In this document: positions 7,420-17,227 of the stretch, piece after piece
How the letters are laid out: every line of letters begins with the position of its first letter
Numbering within the stretch: position 1 is the stretch's first letter
Origin: Candidatus Saccharimonadota bacterium
GTDB lineage: Bacteria > Patescibacteriota > Saccharimonadia > Saccharimonadales > Saccharimonadaceae
Reading direction: 5' to 3'
Length of the DNA: 64,000 bases
Assembly (NCBI GenBank): GCA_028286395.1
Contig: JAQBRS010000001.1
Coordinates: 1-64,000, forward strand
Made by a program: the position numbers and the translations under genes
The notes under the pieces: generated by a model
Told to the model about the DNA's origin: nothing
Seen by the model: the letters and a program-made list of their open reading frames with translations, nothing else
Databases searched by the model: none

Positions 7420-10299
7420 TTAACGAAGTTTGACGTGGACTTCATCGTCGGAGTTTTGGCTCGGATCACGGATGTGAAGTTTGTTGATTTCTACTGGTGA
7501 TTCCGCTGGTTTCACAACGACTTCAGCTTCTTTCGGTGGTGCTGGCTTTGGCATTTCGACAGGAGCAACAGGCCCCTGTTCAACGACAGGTTGCGGAACT
7601 GGCGCTTGCGGTTGAGACGCAGGCGTACCAGCGGTTGGACCGAAGGCAGGGTTCGGCGCTGGCTGTCCTGGAGTTGCCGTAGGTTTTGTGGCAATTTGCT
7701 GACGTTTGGCTAACCACTCATCAAGGAATGACGATCCGCCAGTTGTAGCGGGTGGACCACCAGCTGGACGAGATGCCGCAGGCGTACTTCCGCTATTTTG
7801 AAGCGCTGCCATGCGTGCTTCTTGGGCTTGTTTCAGCTGATCCATCTTAGCCTTTCGAGCCGTATCACCCGCACCAAGCCGAGCAAAGATATCACGCTCT
7901 ACTTCTGCCCTAGGACGGCCGTATTTGGCCGCAGACAGCTTCTTTAATGCATCACGAAGTTGCGGGCTGCTTGTCCCCATTGATGGCACCAGTGACATGC
8001 TAAAGGCCGATGACGGCACATTATTAATCATGACTGATGTAATAGTCTTGAAATTTGGCAGCTTGGTCAAATCCTCTGCATCAAAGGTTGGTGCAAACTT
8101 CTTTTGAAGAATCTCCGCATCGGTAATACCAATACGTCCTGCAACTACTGTCCCAATGTTACCAATGATCGCTTCACGAATTTTATCGGTCAGCTGCGTC
8201 ATGAACTGGTTAGCTAACACCAAGCTGAGGCGGTACTTACGCGCTTCAGATAGGATGCTTTCAAAGCTGTCGGTTGCAAAGTTCTGGAACTCGTCGACAT
8301 ATAAGGTAAAGTCGATACGCTCAGCCTCGGGAATATCAGCACGTCCCATGGCAGCTGCCTGGAATTTCATCACGAACATCATACCAAGCAATTGCGAGTT
8401 CAACTCCCCTGTTCGTCCCTTTGAAAGGTTCACGAGCAGGATCTTTTTGTTATCCATGATTTCGCGAAGGTCGAAACCACTCTTGGTCTGACCGATAATA
8501 TTACGCATCATTTCGTTACCAAGGAAGGCACCGAACTTACTGGCGAACCACCCGAGCATTTCACCCTTAGCGGACTCGCTTGTCTGTGCCATTTCTTTGT
8601 TCCAAAAGTCGAGGACCATGCGGTTTTGGACAAACTTAATCTTTTCATCAGCAAATGCTTGATCAATGAACACCTGTTGGACATCAAGGAATGATGATCC
8701 ACCTGGGTCGCTCATCACCGTTAAGGCGGCATTACGGAACCATGACTCAAATCGTGGACCGACAATACCAGTGTGGCCTGGGTCATATAACTTATACAGC
8801 ATCGCGATTGACTCTTGAATCAAGAAGTCTTGTTGGTCAGGGTTATCAAACTCAAACAAGTTAAGCCCAATCGGCATTTCCATGTCGCCAGGGCTAAAGT
8901 AGATAACATCTTCGACACGTTCTTTCGGCACCATGCCCAAGAGAGTTTCAGCCGTGTCGCCGTGTGGGTCGATAAAGGCAAAGCCCTTGCCATCCATCAT
9001 GTCCTGGAATGCGAGGTTTTCGAGCGTAACCGACTTACCCGTACCGGTTTGTCCAATAATGTAAGCGTGACGACGACGGTCATTAGTACTGAGGCGAATT
9101 GGTTTCTTGACGCCACGGAACTCGTTTGTTCCCAGAAGGAAGCCTTCGTCCATGATTTGGGTTGGCCCATCAACTTGTTTGTCCATCTGACGAGTCACCT
9201 GTGAGGTCGGAATTGAGCCTTGGTCCGGCAAGTGGAAGATTGATGCTAACTCAACAGTATTCAGGATATTCTGATTCACTTCTTGTGGAAAGAAGCGGAA
9301 GATGTAGGCAGTGACGAACTCTTCAATATCTTTACTGACCGTAAACTTAAAGCCGTTGTTAGAAGTTGAGTCGAACAATGAAAAAGCAGATACGACGCTA
9401 TTCAGCATCGCCTGCGATTTTCCGGCTGTATTAGATGACGCGACCACACGGATCAGCGTTTCGTACCCCGGATAGCGGGTTTTGTCTTCGATAGCTTCAA
9501 CTTCAGCTTGTTCAAGTGAGCTAAGCTGTTTGTCTTCAGGTTTCGCTTCTTTGCTTTCAGGTGGTTTCCATAGCGCTTCCATAATGCCGGCAGCGTTAAT
9601 ACCTGCGAAGCCTTTTTTGACGCCCTTATTCTTTTTGATATTCTCGGCAACGTTGACGGCGCTTCGATTCCAGCCAGTAAATGCTGGACGAATCAAGATC
9701 TGGATGCCGATACCGTCTTCACGACTGGCCGCAGATAGTGCGTTCAGCATTGCGCGGGCTGCATCGCGTTTTGATTCTTGGTAGGTTGCGATTGGATGTG
9801 CGTAGTTTTTCTTTAATGTAAACTCGCCACCGATCGTCCCACTCATCCTGCCCGCTGGGTTAAAGATGTTGCGTTCAGATACTTCCTCTAGCCGAGCTGA
9901 GGGATAGGCCGCCGCGACTGCCTGCGTAATGACGTCGACCATAATGATTGGCGCAACGACATAGTAGTGAACGAGGCCTTCGTGCGCGACAACTTCAAAT
10001 GAAACGTGGCGCTGTCCGTAGATACGGCTTTTGAAGCCTTTGGTCGCCGTGCTAGCAATAATGTTATACATGACCTGTGCTTGTGACAGGACTTCTTCAG
10101 TGATGTCGCGTTCATCACGGCCGTTGTTCTCAAGGTCGTCACCCGCTGGTGGAATGTGGATATAGAGAGGGACCATCTTGAGGCCACGTTCGTAGTTCTT
10201 GGCTTCACGAAGAATCTTACGGTACTGGGCAAAAGCAAAGTAAAGAACGCCGGCAATAACGGCAAGGATTACCAATGTGGTAACGATGAACCCTAACAC
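7420..10299 (-). CDS. type IV secretion/conjugation-type ATPase (DUF87/TraG-VirD4-like) with N-terminal TM segment and Pro-rich tail
   Basis: Walker A GQTGTGKSVTLENLAFQDM, FIDPHGDTAETLLG, DFTLYVDEFQNFATDSFESILSEARKYRLSLVLANQF. Confidence 0.8.
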   Translation of the reverse strand: MLGFIVTTLVILAVIAGVLYFAFAQYRKILREAKNYERGLKMVPLYIHIPPAGDDLENNGRDERDITEEVLSQAQVMYNIIASTATKGFKSRIYGQRHVSFEVVAHEGLVHYYVVAPIIMVDVITQAVAAAYPSARLEEVSERNIFNPAGRMSGTIGGEFTLKKNYAHPIATYQESKRDAARAMLNALSAASREDGIGIQILIRPAFTGWNRSAVNVAENIKKNKGVKKGFAGINAAGIMEALWKPPESKEAKPEDKQLSSLEQAEVEAIEDKTRYPGYETLIRVVASSNTAGKSQAMLNSVVSAFSLFDSTSNNGFKFTVSKDIEEFVTAYIFRFFPQEVNQNILNTVELASIFHLPDQGSIPTSQVTRQMDKQVDGPTQIMDEGFLLGTNEFRGVKKPIRLSTNDRRRHAYIIGQTGTGKSVTLENLAFQDMMDGKGFAFIDPHGDTAETLLGMVPKERVEDVIYFSPGDMEMPIGLNLFEFDNPDQQDFLIQESIAMLYKLYDPGHTGIVGPRFESWFRNAALTVMSDPGGSSFLDVQQVFIDQAFADEKIKFVQNRMVLDFWNKEMAQTSESAKGEMLGWFASKFGAFLGNEMMRNIIGQTKSGFDLREIMDNKKILLVNLSKGRTGELNSQLLGMMFVMKFQAAAMGRADIPEAERIDFTLYVDEFQNFATDSFESILSEARKYRLSLVLANQFMTQLTDKIREAIIGNIGTVVAGRIGITDAEILQKKFAPTFDAEDLTKLPNFKTITSVMINNVPSSAFSMSLVPSMGTSSPQLRDALKKLSAAKYGRPRAEVERDIFARLGAGDTARKAKMDQLKQAQEARMAALQNSGSTPAASRPAGGPPATTGGSSFLDEWLAKRQQIATKPTATPGQPAPNPAFGPTAGTPASQPQAPVPQPVVEQGPVAPVEMPKPAPPKEAEVVVKPAESPVEINKLHIRDPSQNSDDEVHVKLR

Positions 10300-10336: not shown

Positions 10337-10765
10337 CTATTCACTAGCGCCGAGATCCTTATTGTATCGCTTCTTTAGATAATCTCGTTGTAACTCGTTC
10401 ACCTTGTTGGTTCTTTCGAACGGATCGTCCTTGGTCCCCTGAATGATCTTTTTGGCTTTGTCGACCCACTCCTTCTCGATCACGTCCTCGTCGGCAGCGA
10501 CCGCAGGACTATCTGTCACCGCCGATTGCGTTACTTGGACCAGTGGTACCGGTGGTGCAGGTGGCATCGTCGGCATACCTGAGGCGGCAGCATCGGCTGC
10601 GGCGACGCTCACCTCGGCAGCTTGCTCGAAGCGTTCTTGGCCAGTTTCTAACCCTCCTTCAGGGGTGGGCAGCACGGGAACACGTTCTCCCCCCGGAGTA
10701 ACGTTTGTTGGTGCTAGTTCAGGCCCACTCGGGACCCTGGGAGTTTCGGGCTGCATATCTGTCAT
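10337..10765 (-). CDS. hypothetical Pro/Ala-rich protein
   Basis: ORF downstream of an apparent operon gap; no family recognised. Confidence 0.5.
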   Translation of the reverse strand: MTDMQPETPRVPSGPELAPTNVTPGGERVPVLPTPEGGLETGQERFEQAAEVSVAAADAAASGMPTMPPAPPVPLVQVTQSAVTDSPAVAADEDVIEKEWVDKAKKIIQGTKDDPFERTNKVNELQRDYLKKRYNKDLGASE

Positions 10766-10822: not shown

Positions 10823-11209
10823 TTAATAAATTCTTTTCGTGATGTAGACGCAGCCGATCACCTCAAAAAGGACCACCAATAGGAACTCGTAAATCCCTAC
10901 CGACCCTACCGACTGCAACCCCACCAGCATGACTGGCGCGGCAGCCAACACCGTTGAGTAGTAGTAGGCGCGGCGAAACGACATCACCTGCATCGGGCGA
11001 CGCATCGTAAAGCCAGCTGAGGCATAGACGATAATGCGACTAATCCCATACAAAAAAAAGCTTATCAAACCGAGTGAGGTCAGATAAGCCGAGATAAATA
11101 TCAACAGGAGCCCGAAAGGGCCCGCTGATGCTGGAGTCGTGGTCATCAGCATCAGTGAGAGCAAGCAGAGGCTCACCAGGGTAATAATTGCGATCACTCT
11201 TTGTAACAT
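10823..11209 (-). CDS. hypothetical membrane protein
   Basis: Several hydrophobic segments. Confidence 0.5.
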   Translation of the reverse strand: MLQRVIAIITLVSLCLLSLMLMTTTPASAGPFGLLLIFISAYLTSLGLISFFLYGISRIIVYASAGFTMRRPMQVMSFRRAYYYSTVLAAAPVMLVGLQSVGSVGIYEFLLVVLFEVIGCVYITKRIY

Positions 11210-11250
11210 AATAGATTCACTATATACGAAACATAAGAGTTATAAAACAG

Positions 11251-11718
11251 GGTGTCCGAGCGATACACCTAATGTTCAAGGTTGCAGCAAACGCCGCAGT
11301 AAATAATAAAAGGGCGTGTGAACGAAGAACAGTGTATCGCTATCGGACTAATCTGACCGCTCCCGAATATCGGGGGCAACCGTGTGCTCGTTCGACCGTG
11401 TTCCACGAGACGTCTTGAGTCAGCGCTGCTTCTCTTCATAGGAGAAACAAGGTTTTACAAGACGTCTCGGTACTTACTATCGAAACACCTTTCGGCGGAG
11501 CATCGGCAACGCGAACATGTAATATCAGACTCAAAGTGTGTACAAATCAATAAAGATACGTACGAAGGTGCAAGCCATAGCTGCAGAAAAGGAGAACTAA
11601 ACTGCGGCATCTGGCCAAAGGGTCTTATATTCCATTAGGCGTTAACGTTGCCAACTTTCCGTCGAATCGTGGCCCAGCTTTGGACACTGGATATCAGATC
11701 GATCCGGTTGGATCTTTG
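11251..11718 (+). ncRNA. candidate large structured non-coding RNA
   Basis: No credible CDS; 15-bp bulged stem (11254-11268/11332-11348), nested GTTCA/TGAAC and ACGCC/GGCGT, 7-bp CUCCCGA/UCGGGGG hairpin with a U.G pair, perfect 12-bp stem 11406-11417/11458-11469; TATAAA 11241-11246 just upstream; GATCCGGTTGGATCTTTG hairpin near the end. Confidence 0.4.
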
Positions 11719-11794
11719 TAGTAAAGGGCTAAATTGTTAAGGTGGGTTTTGTTCGGTTTCAGGTGCGGTGAACTCGAACGTTTGATCTGAACTT

Positions 11795-11822
11795 GTCTTG
11801 GAACTTTTGTCTCGGAACTTTT
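11795..11822. repeat. two adjacent 14-bp tandem repeats GTCTyGGAACTTTT
   Basis: GTCTTGGAACTTTT followed by GTCTCGGAACTTTT, one mismatch. Confidence 0.6.
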
Positions 11823-12685
11823 TGGTGCGTTGCTTTTTGTTTTGCTAAAAGCTTGTCCTTACAGTAGCACGTATCCCCTTATAGGTCAATACGGTTGCGG
11901 TTATTTATATAGGTAATATATACATCAAACTCTCTGTTAGTGATACATTCAAGGTGTTATTATTCATAAAATGTAGAGAATACAACGTTGTATTATTGAT
12001 ATTACTCTACGTTCCTCTCTTGATTTATAGCCAGTTGTCTTCTGCACTACAGGTAGTGTTAGACCTTGTTTTGTCTGATTTACGCTGTGCCCGATGAACT
12101 CTCCGATCTTTGGTCTCAGTACGTATGTCGCAATTCGTCGCCCTCGCATTTGCTGTCAGCTTTGTGTCCATCGTACCCATTTTTGTCTACAGCCTGAACA
12201 CAAGATTTTGTCAGATTCTGTTTTTTCGGAACGCTTGGTGATTTCCGAATACGTCCGCAGGCTTTGTTTGTGAGCTGCCTTATTTTTCGCAAAAGCAATG
12301 CACGGGCTTTTCAGAATGCGGAACAACCGCATGCGGACTTGGCATGAAAATGTATTCATGGTAGTTCGGCCTATATATGACGCATACCGTACTTTTTTTG
12401 TCATACCGATATACTTATTTCGACCTGTAGCTATATCCACATGGAGCACACCGACTCATACCCAAAGTTCACTTATTCATACGGCCCAACAGTCAGGCTG
12501 TGGGAAACTTTTACCGTCATATCCTAGCCGTACTCACGGACCATGAAGCAATTAGCCCTTCATTATCCCTTAAAGGCTTGGTTCAGATAGTGATATGTGG
12601 TGCTCCCTCGTTACTGGCCGACACTAGGCTAAAATAAGCTGAAAGTACGTGGTATTTTTTACCTAAATAATCTTGTAAAAAGTTA

Positions 12686-12714
12686 TTGACACAAGCGCTT
12701 TCAGACCCTATTAT
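12686..12714 (+). promoter_or_regulatory. strong sigma70-type promoter
   Basis: TTGACA (12686-12691), 17-bp spacer, TATTAT (12709-12714). Confidence 0.75.
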
Positions 12715-12720
12715 AGGGGT

Positions 12721-12837
12721 AGCTCCTGAATAAAAAACTTATACACATAAAGTGACTAAGCCTTCGGAAGCCAAAAACAAAAATCAAGAAAAAACTCCAC
12801 AAAAATGACGGTTCCTCGCAGGCCGTCATTTTACTTT
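12721..12837 (+). ncRNA. candidate small RNA (~115 nt)
   Basis: Starts about 7 nt after the consensus promoter; ends in terminator hairpin AAAATGACGG-ttcctcgcagg-CCGTCATTTT; no credible ORF. Confidence 0.5.
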
Positions 12838-12865
12838 CTAGGAGTTAATCCATTAATTTCCATAT

Positions 12866-12898
12866 AAAATACCCGCCTATTGTCTAGGCGGGTATTTT
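12866..12898 (-). terminator. terminator of tmRNA (symmetrical)
   Basis: AAAATACCCGCCTA..TAGGCGGGTATTTT. Confidence 0.85.
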
Positions 12899-12911
12899 CG
12901 TGATCATGTCG

Positions 12912-13291
12912 TGGTGGAGCTGCCGGGTACTGCCCCCGGGTCCGAAAGGTAACCTGCTATTCGTCTACAAGCGTAGCCTTAATTGAGCTTTACGTTGTTC
13001 CGTCCAGCCTCAAACAAAGGCTAAAATGACTGGAGGATCGCGCTGAAAGGTGTCCCAGATAACCGCAGCTGCCCGGCTAAGAGGTAAGAAGCATACTTAT
13101 AACACCGTTTTCTCTATGCTTCCTTGAGAAAAATCGATGGCTTAGGCCGCTAGGGCGAAAGCTGGCGCTTGGAATGCAAATGCACTCTTCAGCTTAGCAA
13201 ATGTGTTTGCAATTAAATTGTGCACGTAACGTGTGCGGTCGGCTTGCAAAATAACCTGTTAAAGTCCTCTCGTCGAAGCTATATCAGCCCC
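12912..13291 (-). ncRNA. ssrA: transfer-messenger RNA (tmRNA)
   Basis: 5' GGGGCTGATATAGCTTCGACGAG, 3' ..GGACCCGGGGGCAGTACCCGGCAGCTCCACCA; acceptor stem GGGGCTG/CAGCTCC with G3.U pair; tag ORF 13210-13142 ANTFAKLKSAFAFQAPAFALAA*. Confidence 0.95.
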
Positions 13292-13357: not shown

Positions 13358-14902
13358 ATGATAGCGCGAGTCACGACAGTAGCATTAGTGGGATACGACG
13401 GCGCCCTCGTAGAGGTCGAAACAGACCTAAAACAAGGGTTACCAGCCATGCATATCGTCGGTATGGGCAATAAGGCCGTGGAAGAGGCTAGAGAACGGGT
13501 ACGGAGCGCTATTTCCAATTCGCTCCTCGACTTCCCTGCCCGTAAACTGATCGTGAATCTTGCGCCAGCTGAATTACCGAAGGATGGTGCCCAATACGAC
13601 CTCCCAATTGCCCTGTCTATTCTTATCGCCAGTGGTCAATTACGTCAAACGGAGGTGAAGGGAGCGTTATTTGCCGGTGAATTGTCACTCAGTGGTGAAC
13701 TTCGACCGATTAGAGGGGTCATCACGATCACCGAAGCCGCCAAAAGAGCAGGATTTACGGAGGTGTACGTTCCTATAGGCAATGTCACCCAGGCAAGTTT
13801 GGTCGAAGATATCGCTGTTATAGGGGTAGCGAGTCTCAAAGAGCTGTTCTTGCACCTCAAGAAAGAAGTGATCATCGCCCCTTTCGTACCTAGCCCAGAG
13901 GTTATTGCTTCTCCCCCACCTCTTATCACCATTGACGATGTCCGCGGTCAAGCCCAAGCAAAGCGCGCCTTACAGATTGCGGCGGCTGGCAGACACAACA
14001 TCCTCCTCACCGGACCACCAGGGGCCGGAAAAACAATGCTCGCAAGGGCACTCGTCAGCCTACTCCCACCCCTGTCAAAGTCAGAACAACTAGCCGTGAC
14101 GAGGCTGTACAGTATCGCTGGTGAACGAGCGCACGTTATCAAGGACCGCCCCTTTCGCTCTCCTCACCATACAACCAGCCCGATTGCCCTCATTGGTGGC
14201 GGAGCGAAGGCGCTGCCTGGCGAGATCAGCCTCGCCCACTTAGGTGTCCTATTCCTGGACGAATTACCTGAATATCCGCGGGCAGCTTTGGAAGCATTAC
14301 GCCAGCCGCTAGAAGACCGAATGATCTCGATTGCCCGCGCGCATGGGCGAATTACCTACCCTGCAGACTTCATGTTGGTGGCCACAATGAACCCATGCCC
14401 GTGCGGCTATTACGGCGATCCCAACAAAGAGTGCATTTGCAGTTCAGTGCAAATTCTGGCTTATCAGAAACGGTTATCCGGACCACTGCTCGACCGTATC
14501 GACCTCATTTTAAACGTTTCTAAGGTATCTCACGAATCATTATTGTCTTCAAAAGCGTTGAATAAAAAGCAACAATCAAAAGCGTTTGAACACATAATGA
14601 ATGCACAACAGGTTCAAAAAATGAGATATAATAGTAGCCATATATACAACGCTGCTTTATCGTCCGCTGCGATCAAAAAGCACCTCATTCTCTCACCTGC
14701 GGCAAGAAAACTTTTACTCAGCGCGTCAGCCAAATTAGACCTGACGGCCCGAAGCTATTTCAAAGTAATTAAGGTTGCGCAGACGATTGCGGACCTGGCA
14801 GAAGACGGACCAGGTGAACACGTAAGCGAAGCCAAGACTCGCACAATCGAAGCCGTCCACATTGCCGAAGCGCTTCAGTATCGCATCAGCCCGCCCGGCT
14901 AG
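13358..14902 (+). CDS. comM: YifB/ComM-family Mg-chelatase-like AAA+ ATPase
   Basis: GPPGAGKTMLARAL, RPFRSPHHTTSPIALIGGG, GVLFLDELPEY, MNPCPCGYYGDPNKEC. Confidence 0.92.
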   Translation: MIARVTTVALVGYDGALVEVETDLKQGLPAMHIVGMGNKAVEEARERVRSAISNSLLDFPARKLIVNLAPAELPKDGAQYDLPIALSILIASGQLRQTEVKGALFAGELSLSGELRPIRGVITITEAAKRAGFTEVYVPIGNVTQASLVEDIAVIGVASLKELFLHLKKEVIIAPFVPSPEVIASPPPLITIDDVRGQAQAKRALQIAAAGRHNILLTGPPGAGKTMLARALVSLLPPLSKSEQLAVTRLYSIAGERAHVIKDRPFRSPHHTTSPIALIGGGAKALPGEISLAHLGVLFLDELPEYPRAALEALRQPLEDRMISIARAHGRITYPADFMLVATMNPCPCGYYGDPNKECICSSVQILAYQKRLSGPLLDRIDLILNVSKVSHESLLSSKALNKKQQSKAFEHIMNAQQVQKMRYNSSHIYNAALSSAAIKKHLILSPAARKLLLSASAKLDLTARSYFKVIKVAQTIADLAEDGPGEHVSEAKTRTIEAVHIAEALQYRISPPG

Positions 14903-16848: not shown

Positions 16849-16892
16849 CTCAACTAAAAAAACCACCCGAATGGGTGATTTTTTTAGTTGAG
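16849..16892. terminator. very long terminator hairpin overlapping the 3' end of RNase P RNA
   Basis: CTCAACTAAAAAAA-c-CACCC-GAAT-GGGTG-a-TTTTTTTAGTTGAG. Confidence 0.85.
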
Positions 16893-17227
16893 CAGTCCGT
16901 CTGTAAGCCGGGTTTTGTCGAGGACGACCATCTATCTAGCCCCACGATTGCTCGTAGGATCAAGCGGGTAGCGACCAACGGACGGATAGCCCTTGTATGT
17001 TGATCTCCTTGCAGCTGGCAGGGTTTACCTTCTCCATATGTCACCATATGACGCTGTGGGCTCTTACCCCACTCATTTCACCCTTACCTCCGAGGAGGCG
17101 GTTTTGTTTCTGTGGCACTTTCCCTACGGTTGCCCGCGGTTGCCGTTAACAACTGCCGTTATCCTATGCTGCCCGGACTTTCCTCTTACTTTTTGACGGC
17201 AAGCGGTCGTCTAACGAACTGCCTATC
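16888..17227 (-). ncRNA. rnpB: RNase P RNA (type A-like)
   Basis: GAGGAAAGTCCGGGC, AGGGTGAAATGAGTGGGGTAAGAGCCCACAGCG, GTAAACCC, 3' CCCGGCTTACAGACGGACTG; TATAAT at 17232-17237 upstream. Confidence 0.94.

Follow-up and report, generated by a model that had tools for sequence, protein, structure and literature searches.

Those large RNAs of bacteria whose roles are understood (rRNA, RNase P, tmRNA) have central functions in the cell. As a general type, large structured non-coding RNAs are already known, and to our knowledge few bacterial RNAs are as large, as structured and as conserved throughout an order as the one described here. Next to the gene for OLE RNA of Bacillota is one for a membrane protein with four predicted helices and of unknown family, and this adjacency led to the identification of its partner OapA (PMC11332333). 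Here, we analyzed a window of 64,000 nt from a Candidatus Saccharimonadota genome (Ca. Saccharibacteria, close to Ca. Microsaccharimonas; contig JAQBRS010000001.1, positions 1 to 64,000), in which a large structured RNA lies in a comparable position. The neighborhood of this RNA is organized as follows:

7420-10299, minus strand: TraG/VirD4-like ATPase, 959 aa (PF12696, PF01935, PF02534; NCBIfam matches below cut-off)
10337-10765, minus strand: 142-aa protein of no family, in the same gene string as the membrane protein
10823-11209, minus strand: 128-aa four-helix membrane protein of no known family, neighbor of the RNA in all places tested
12912-13291, minus strand: tmRNA (RF00023, 87.5 bits)
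13358-14902, plus strand: comM, behind the tmRNA
16888-17222: RNase P RNA gene (RF00010)

An initial annotation of the window had proposed a structured non-coding RNA of unrecognized family in a gene desert. Both parts of this proposal were borne out. The interval 11210-12911, between the 128-aa ORF (minus) and the tmRNA (minus), is free of credible genes. Across dozens of genomes its stems are preserved and show covariation. Searches against Rfam 15, whether at the gathering level or with E allowed up to 10, gave nothing convincing for the gap on either strand; these included the families named earlier for checking (OLE, GOLLD, ROOL, raiA, group I and group II introns), and neither the introns nor other Rfam families matched the RNA. 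No protein family was found in any frame of the region. The longest ORFs average 47 aa versus 45 aa in shuffled sequences, showing no coding potential, and a protein-coding explanation was rejected on this ground. No description of the RNA was found in the open-licence papers searched. The RNA family is new. The neighboring 128-aa protein has four predicted helices (mean pLDDT 92), and neither Pfam nor the sequences and folds of the PDB contain a convincing relative (fold search: none at E <1); a 'pilin-like' label was dropped, as no family match stood behind it. We noticed that ARAGORN misses the tmRNA at 12912-13291 (minus), though Rfam scores it at 87.5 bits. The gap also holds a second conserved element (12686-12840, plus) without an Rfam match above cut-off. 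It consists of a strong promoter TTGACA-17-TATTAT followed by a predicted A-rich RNA of ~115 nt with invariant blocks TAGGGGTAG.TCCTGA and AAAACTCCAC. At the end of this RNA is a terminator-like hairpin, and the hairpin loop, TTCCTCGCAGG, does not vary among 14 aligned genomes of the genus.

Alignment of relatives, a check that the initial annotation had suggested, revealed conserved and covarying stems. The main covariation test was carried out on a full-length alignment of 42 sequences that was not fitted to any structure. In this alignment, 91.2% of the cells at 73 predicted minus-strand pairs were paired, compared to a shuffled mean of 79.4%. Cells changed on both sides of a pair (double-changed cells) numbered 389 on this strand, while shuffled alignments gave a mean of 107 and a maximum of 143. 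Each of the helices P2, P3, P4, P5 and P6 exceeded every shuffle in double-sided changes. The predicted fold of the RNA thus has at least five helices with support (P2-P6), and these surround unpaired blocks that are almost invariant. From 5' to 3' these elements are:

11646-11666, minus strand: conserved UUCGACGGAAA (11656-11666) and P2 5' strand (11646-11654)
11565-11571, minus strand: conserved unpaired block GCACCUU
11503-11511, minus strand: P2 3' strand CGUUGCCGA (P2: 51 double-changed cells, shuffled maximum 25)
11488-11501, minus strand: P3 hairpin, 5' strand and loop GCUCCGCCGAAAGG (13 double-changed cells, shuffled maximum 6)
11409-11466, minus strand: P4 stem, 11451-11466 with 11409-11421 (126 double-changed cells, shuffled maximum 55)
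11359-11377, minus strand: P5 hairpin GCCCCCGAUAUUCGGGAGC (35 double-changed cells, shuffled maximum 19)
11353-11358, minus strand: GGUCAG, nearly invariant, 3' of P5
11254-11349, minus strand: P6, long 3' hairpin with outer strands 11332-11349/11254-11268 (164 double-changed cells, shuffled maximum 70)

Two stems of the initial annotation reappear here, since its helix 11254-11268/11332-11348 corresponds to the outer strands of P6 and its hairpin CUCCCGA..UCGGGGG (11359-11377) to P5. A third, described as a perfect 12-bp stem at 11406-11417/11458-11469, is real and covaries as P4, near 11409-11421/11451-11466. A predicted long-range UUGAC/GUCAG pairing is nearly invariant and drew no support from covariation. 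In one member of the genus (genome G010, locus L031, ~1767-1800) an insertion of ~30 nt was seen just before P5. The 3' domain was further analyzed in three alignments that had been fitted to the model and are biased in its favor, with slid controls and the unfitted 42-sequence test as counterweight: 50 family sequences were 95.0% paired and gave 250 double-changed cells versus 46.7, a set of 20, most of it from other families in the order, gave 79 versus 23.3, and 78 matches from named genomes gave 439 versus 107.9.

The initial annotation had read the RNA on the plus strand. Folding of 11251-11718 gave z-scores of -5.85 (plus) and -7.18 (minus) relative to shuffles. As both strands out-fold shuffled sequences, single-sequence folding is unable to decide the strand. 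RNAalifold of the 3' domain yielded -62.8 for minus versus -56.4 for plus, and the consensus energies of the full-length 42-sequence alignment were near-equal (-116.0 minus, -110.7 plus). The assignment of the strand therefore rests on the asymmetry of G-U and C-A cells and on gene signals. Read as minus, the 42-sequence alignment contains 327 G-U cells versus 71 C-A cells; read as plus, the numbers are 205 and 179, so that the minus strand is the one that fits. The extent had to be revised as well. A TATAAA at 11241-11246, thought to set a start at ~11252, is not conserved upstream of that supposed plus-strand start, and the hairpin at 11701-11714, taken for a terminator, lies inside the RNA shortly past the boxA-like element. 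In the genus alignment conserved blocks run past 11718, up to a promoter near 11889 (minus). Instead of ~465 nt at 11251-11718, the RNA probably covers ~605 nt from ~11854 to ~11245, as judged from the promoter and the U-tract. These results indicate that the minus strand of the region almost certainly encodes a conserved structured RNA.

The distribution of the RNA was analyzed at several taxonomic levels. The DNA at 11200-11740 matched 15 of the 17 genomes of the genus, its own included. A covariance model added one more (G008), and the last genome of the genus without a match (G003) is 77% complete. Three covariance models were built, and model R2 was used for the family search. It found a single copy in each of 122 genomes out of 198 in the family (44 of 61 genera); its matches to other families of the order were weaker. 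Around such weaker hits 20 regions were fetched, and in all 20 the hit was directly ahead of the same gene string. A protein search with the TraG-like ATPase led to 80 named loci, mostly titled Candidatus Saccharibacteria and including Ca. Microsaccharimonas sossegonensis, TM7i and oral TM7 strains. The RNA was present in 77 of these, which is every locus with upstream DNA; the other three begin at most ~125 bases ahead of the ATPase. In all 77 loci the ATPase starts 783-1255 nt past the RNA, and comM was upstream in 61 of the 66 named loci with enough sequence. When genomes of the order that had been missed earlier were checked beside the ATPase, the RNA was found in six of seven, and the covariance-model tallies are thus lower bounds. 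Next to TraG homologues from outside the order, in the same class or in others, the RNA was not found. Hence, it looks specific to the order Saccharimonadales. Two hits were not accepted: G614, a phylum-wide hit outside the order, has no TraG gene beside it and reads as coding sequence, i.e. it is a false positive, and a hit in G145 (E 0.04) lacked the TraG gene string alongside.

Signals for the start and the end of a transcript were identified on the minus strand, flanking the conserved blocks:

11861-11889, minus strand: putative promoter, TTGACC (11884-11889), 17-nt spacer and extended -10 TGCTACTGT (11861-11869), from the genus alignment
11832-11854, minus strand: 5' hairpin AAGCUUUU..AAAAAGC in a boxB-like position ahead of boxA, from folding and pair-preserving variants
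11732-11744, minus strand: boxA-like element CACCUUAACAAUU, conserved across genera, of putative function
11245-11854, minus strand: RNA as predicted from conserved blocks and helices, start near 11854, end near 11245
11240-11249, minus strand: U-rich end CUGUUUUAUA past P6, putative site of termination
11207-11226, minus strand: TATATAGTGAATCTATTATG, probable promoter of the membrane-protein gene itself, at the gene's start

A promoter of the form TTGAC(C)-N17-TGCTAnnnT occurs at the expected place in most of the 77 named loci. Its positions predict RNAs of mostly 360-500 nt in these loci, compared to ~605 nt here. The 5' hairpin was evaluated in 45 loci, where it has a mean energy of -4.7 versus -1.8 kcal/mol for shuffled sequences, and sequence variants preserve the pairing. 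The boxA-like element lies early in the transcript and resembles the rRNA-leader boxA of the same organisms: in eight rRNA loci of the genus CUUUGACAAUUUAG or a close variant is located ~95-160 nt ahead of 16S, and some of the RNAs carry CACAUUGACAAUUC. For this reason a boxA function is likely. The tmRNA of this and related genomes contains a boxA-resembling GACTTTAACAGG at ~13250-13265 (minus), shortly past its 5' end. At the other end of the RNA, a T-rich stretch past P6 was observed in 42 of 77 loci (16.6 expected) and none was seen in the other 35. Separate terminator-like hairpins past the RNA were found in some loci only. In many loci TGnTATAGT is located a few bases ahead of the membrane-protein ATG. 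A similar TGnTAnnnT is found a few bases ahead of the ATG of several ORFs in the window, e.g. 16769, 19053, 34494, 40331 and 41272 (minus), which suggests that this genome commonly uses extended -10 promoters to make leaderless mRNAs.

Taken together, the RNA is probably an independent, trans-acting housekeeping RNA that works in a ribonucleoprotein. We base this reading on the discrete promoter, the boxA-like leader, the apparent end before the next gene, the single copy and the conservation throughout the order. Transcription would start at a sigma-70-type promoter with an extended -10. The 5' hairpin and the boxA-like element would recruit Nus antitermination factors, as in rRNA leaders, and antitermination would let the long untranslated transcript escape Rho. 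Past P6, transcription would end at the U-tract or at a separate terminator hairpin, and the downstream membrane-protein gene would start from its own promoter. Since this gene apparently has its own promoter and the RNA its own end, a housekeeping role in trans, within a ribonucleoprotein, is the most likely one for the RNA.

The main rival is a cis-regulatory leader, with the RNA as the 5' untranslated region of the string of genes for the membrane protein, the 142-aa protein and TraG, controlling it by attenuation or boxA-dependent antitermination. The RNA is always directly upstream of this string; the start of the membrane-protein homologue lies 22-117 nt past its 3' end (median ~40 nt to the start codon, 75 loci with a homologue detected), and such a short fixed distance also suits a leader RNA. 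The link persists where the tmRNA and RNase P neighbors differ (tmRNA was present in 4 and RNase P RNA in 5 of the 20 fetched regions), and the terminal hairpin with its T-rich end could be an attenuator. However, the probable promoter TGnTATAGT between the RNA and the membrane-protein ATG, the T-rich ends and the separate terminators found before the ATG in some loci argue against a common transcript. Moreover, the RNA is larger and structurally more complex than most leaders, and we identified no alternative pairing that could serve as an expression platform. We therefore consider a leader unlikely.

A lower probability is given to the idea that the RNA is a lineage-specific stand-in for a missing SRP RNA or 6S RNA, either highly diverged or unrelated in origin. 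In 21 relatives no SRP RNA was detected (RF00169, RF01854), while RF00169 was positive in 11 of 14 controls, and the search for 6S RNA in the same relatives gave one match, below cut-off. No genome of the genus matches RF00013. An oral Saccharibacterium genome is annotated with only two ncRNAs (PMC8830319). The failure to detect SRP and 6S RNA in relatives leaves room for a replacement role, though the RNA itself carries neither signature: no SRP or 6S model matched it even at E 10, its alignments contain no conserved GGAAGCAGC-type motif of the SRP S-domain, and it is longer than either RNA. Furthermore, a missing model match does not equal a missing RNA. In the 21 Saccharibacteria genomes concerned (G000-G012 and G037-G044), either SRP RNA has diverged strongly or it is absent.

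VirD4-type coupling proteins transport nucleoproteins, and the RNA and the ATPase gene are strictly linked. The RNA could thus be a partner or cargo of the downstream TraG/VirD4-like ATPase system. This is very improbable, given that ATPase relatives in other orders and classes have no detectable copy of the RNA and that the T4CP homologue of Ca. Southlakia epibionticum was reported to be dispensable for epibiotic growth and possibly exapted (PMC12102498). An RNA on the plus strand at 11251-11718 can practically be dismissed, as the one nearly invariant U.G pair in P5 that forms only there, the argument of the initial annotation, is overruled by the remaining helices, no conserved promoter exists on that strand, and minus is the strand on which the promoter, the boxA-like element and the T-rich end are read.

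The RNA is of interest for the genomes in which it is found, which measure ~0.5-1.5 Mb and have lost much else. Natural transformation and transposon sequencing are available for oral Saccharibacteria, which belong to this group (PMC10633639), so that the necessity and function of the RNA are directly testable.

In size, single copy and genomic region the RNA resembles tmRNA and RNase P RNA, but it matches neither RF00023 nor RF00010, and both are encoded separately nearby. Its hairpin followed by a boxA-like element soon past the start, with a core motif shared with rRNA leaders of the genus, is reminiscent of an rRNA leader. Unlike such a leader, it leads into a single RNA of 370-600 nt and not into rRNA, and antitermination is a prediction. 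With raiA, ROOL, GOLLD and other large bacterial ncRNAs it shares large size, structure and a little-known function; it differs from them in having no Rfam match and, as far as found, in occurring in Saccharimonadales only. Like OLE RNA, it is large, single, highly structured and encoded immediately beside a gene for a membrane protein with four predicted helices and no known family. It differs from OLE RNA in the lack of an Rfam match (OLE model included, E up to 10) in belonging to another phylum, and in its neighbor, a protein of 128 aa that matches no PDB fold. The likeness to the OLE system is one of gene arrangement only. From this arrangement, the adjacent membrane protein may tentatively be named as the likeliest partner, working like the OLE RNA-OapA complex. 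Somewhat more speculatively, the RNA might define a new type of large ncRNA that occurs in Saccharimonadales only, apparently in all of them, and joins the neighboring four-helix protein in a membrane-bound ribonucleoprotein. If true, it would be an analogue of OLE RNA that arose independently in ultrasmall episymbiotic bacteria.
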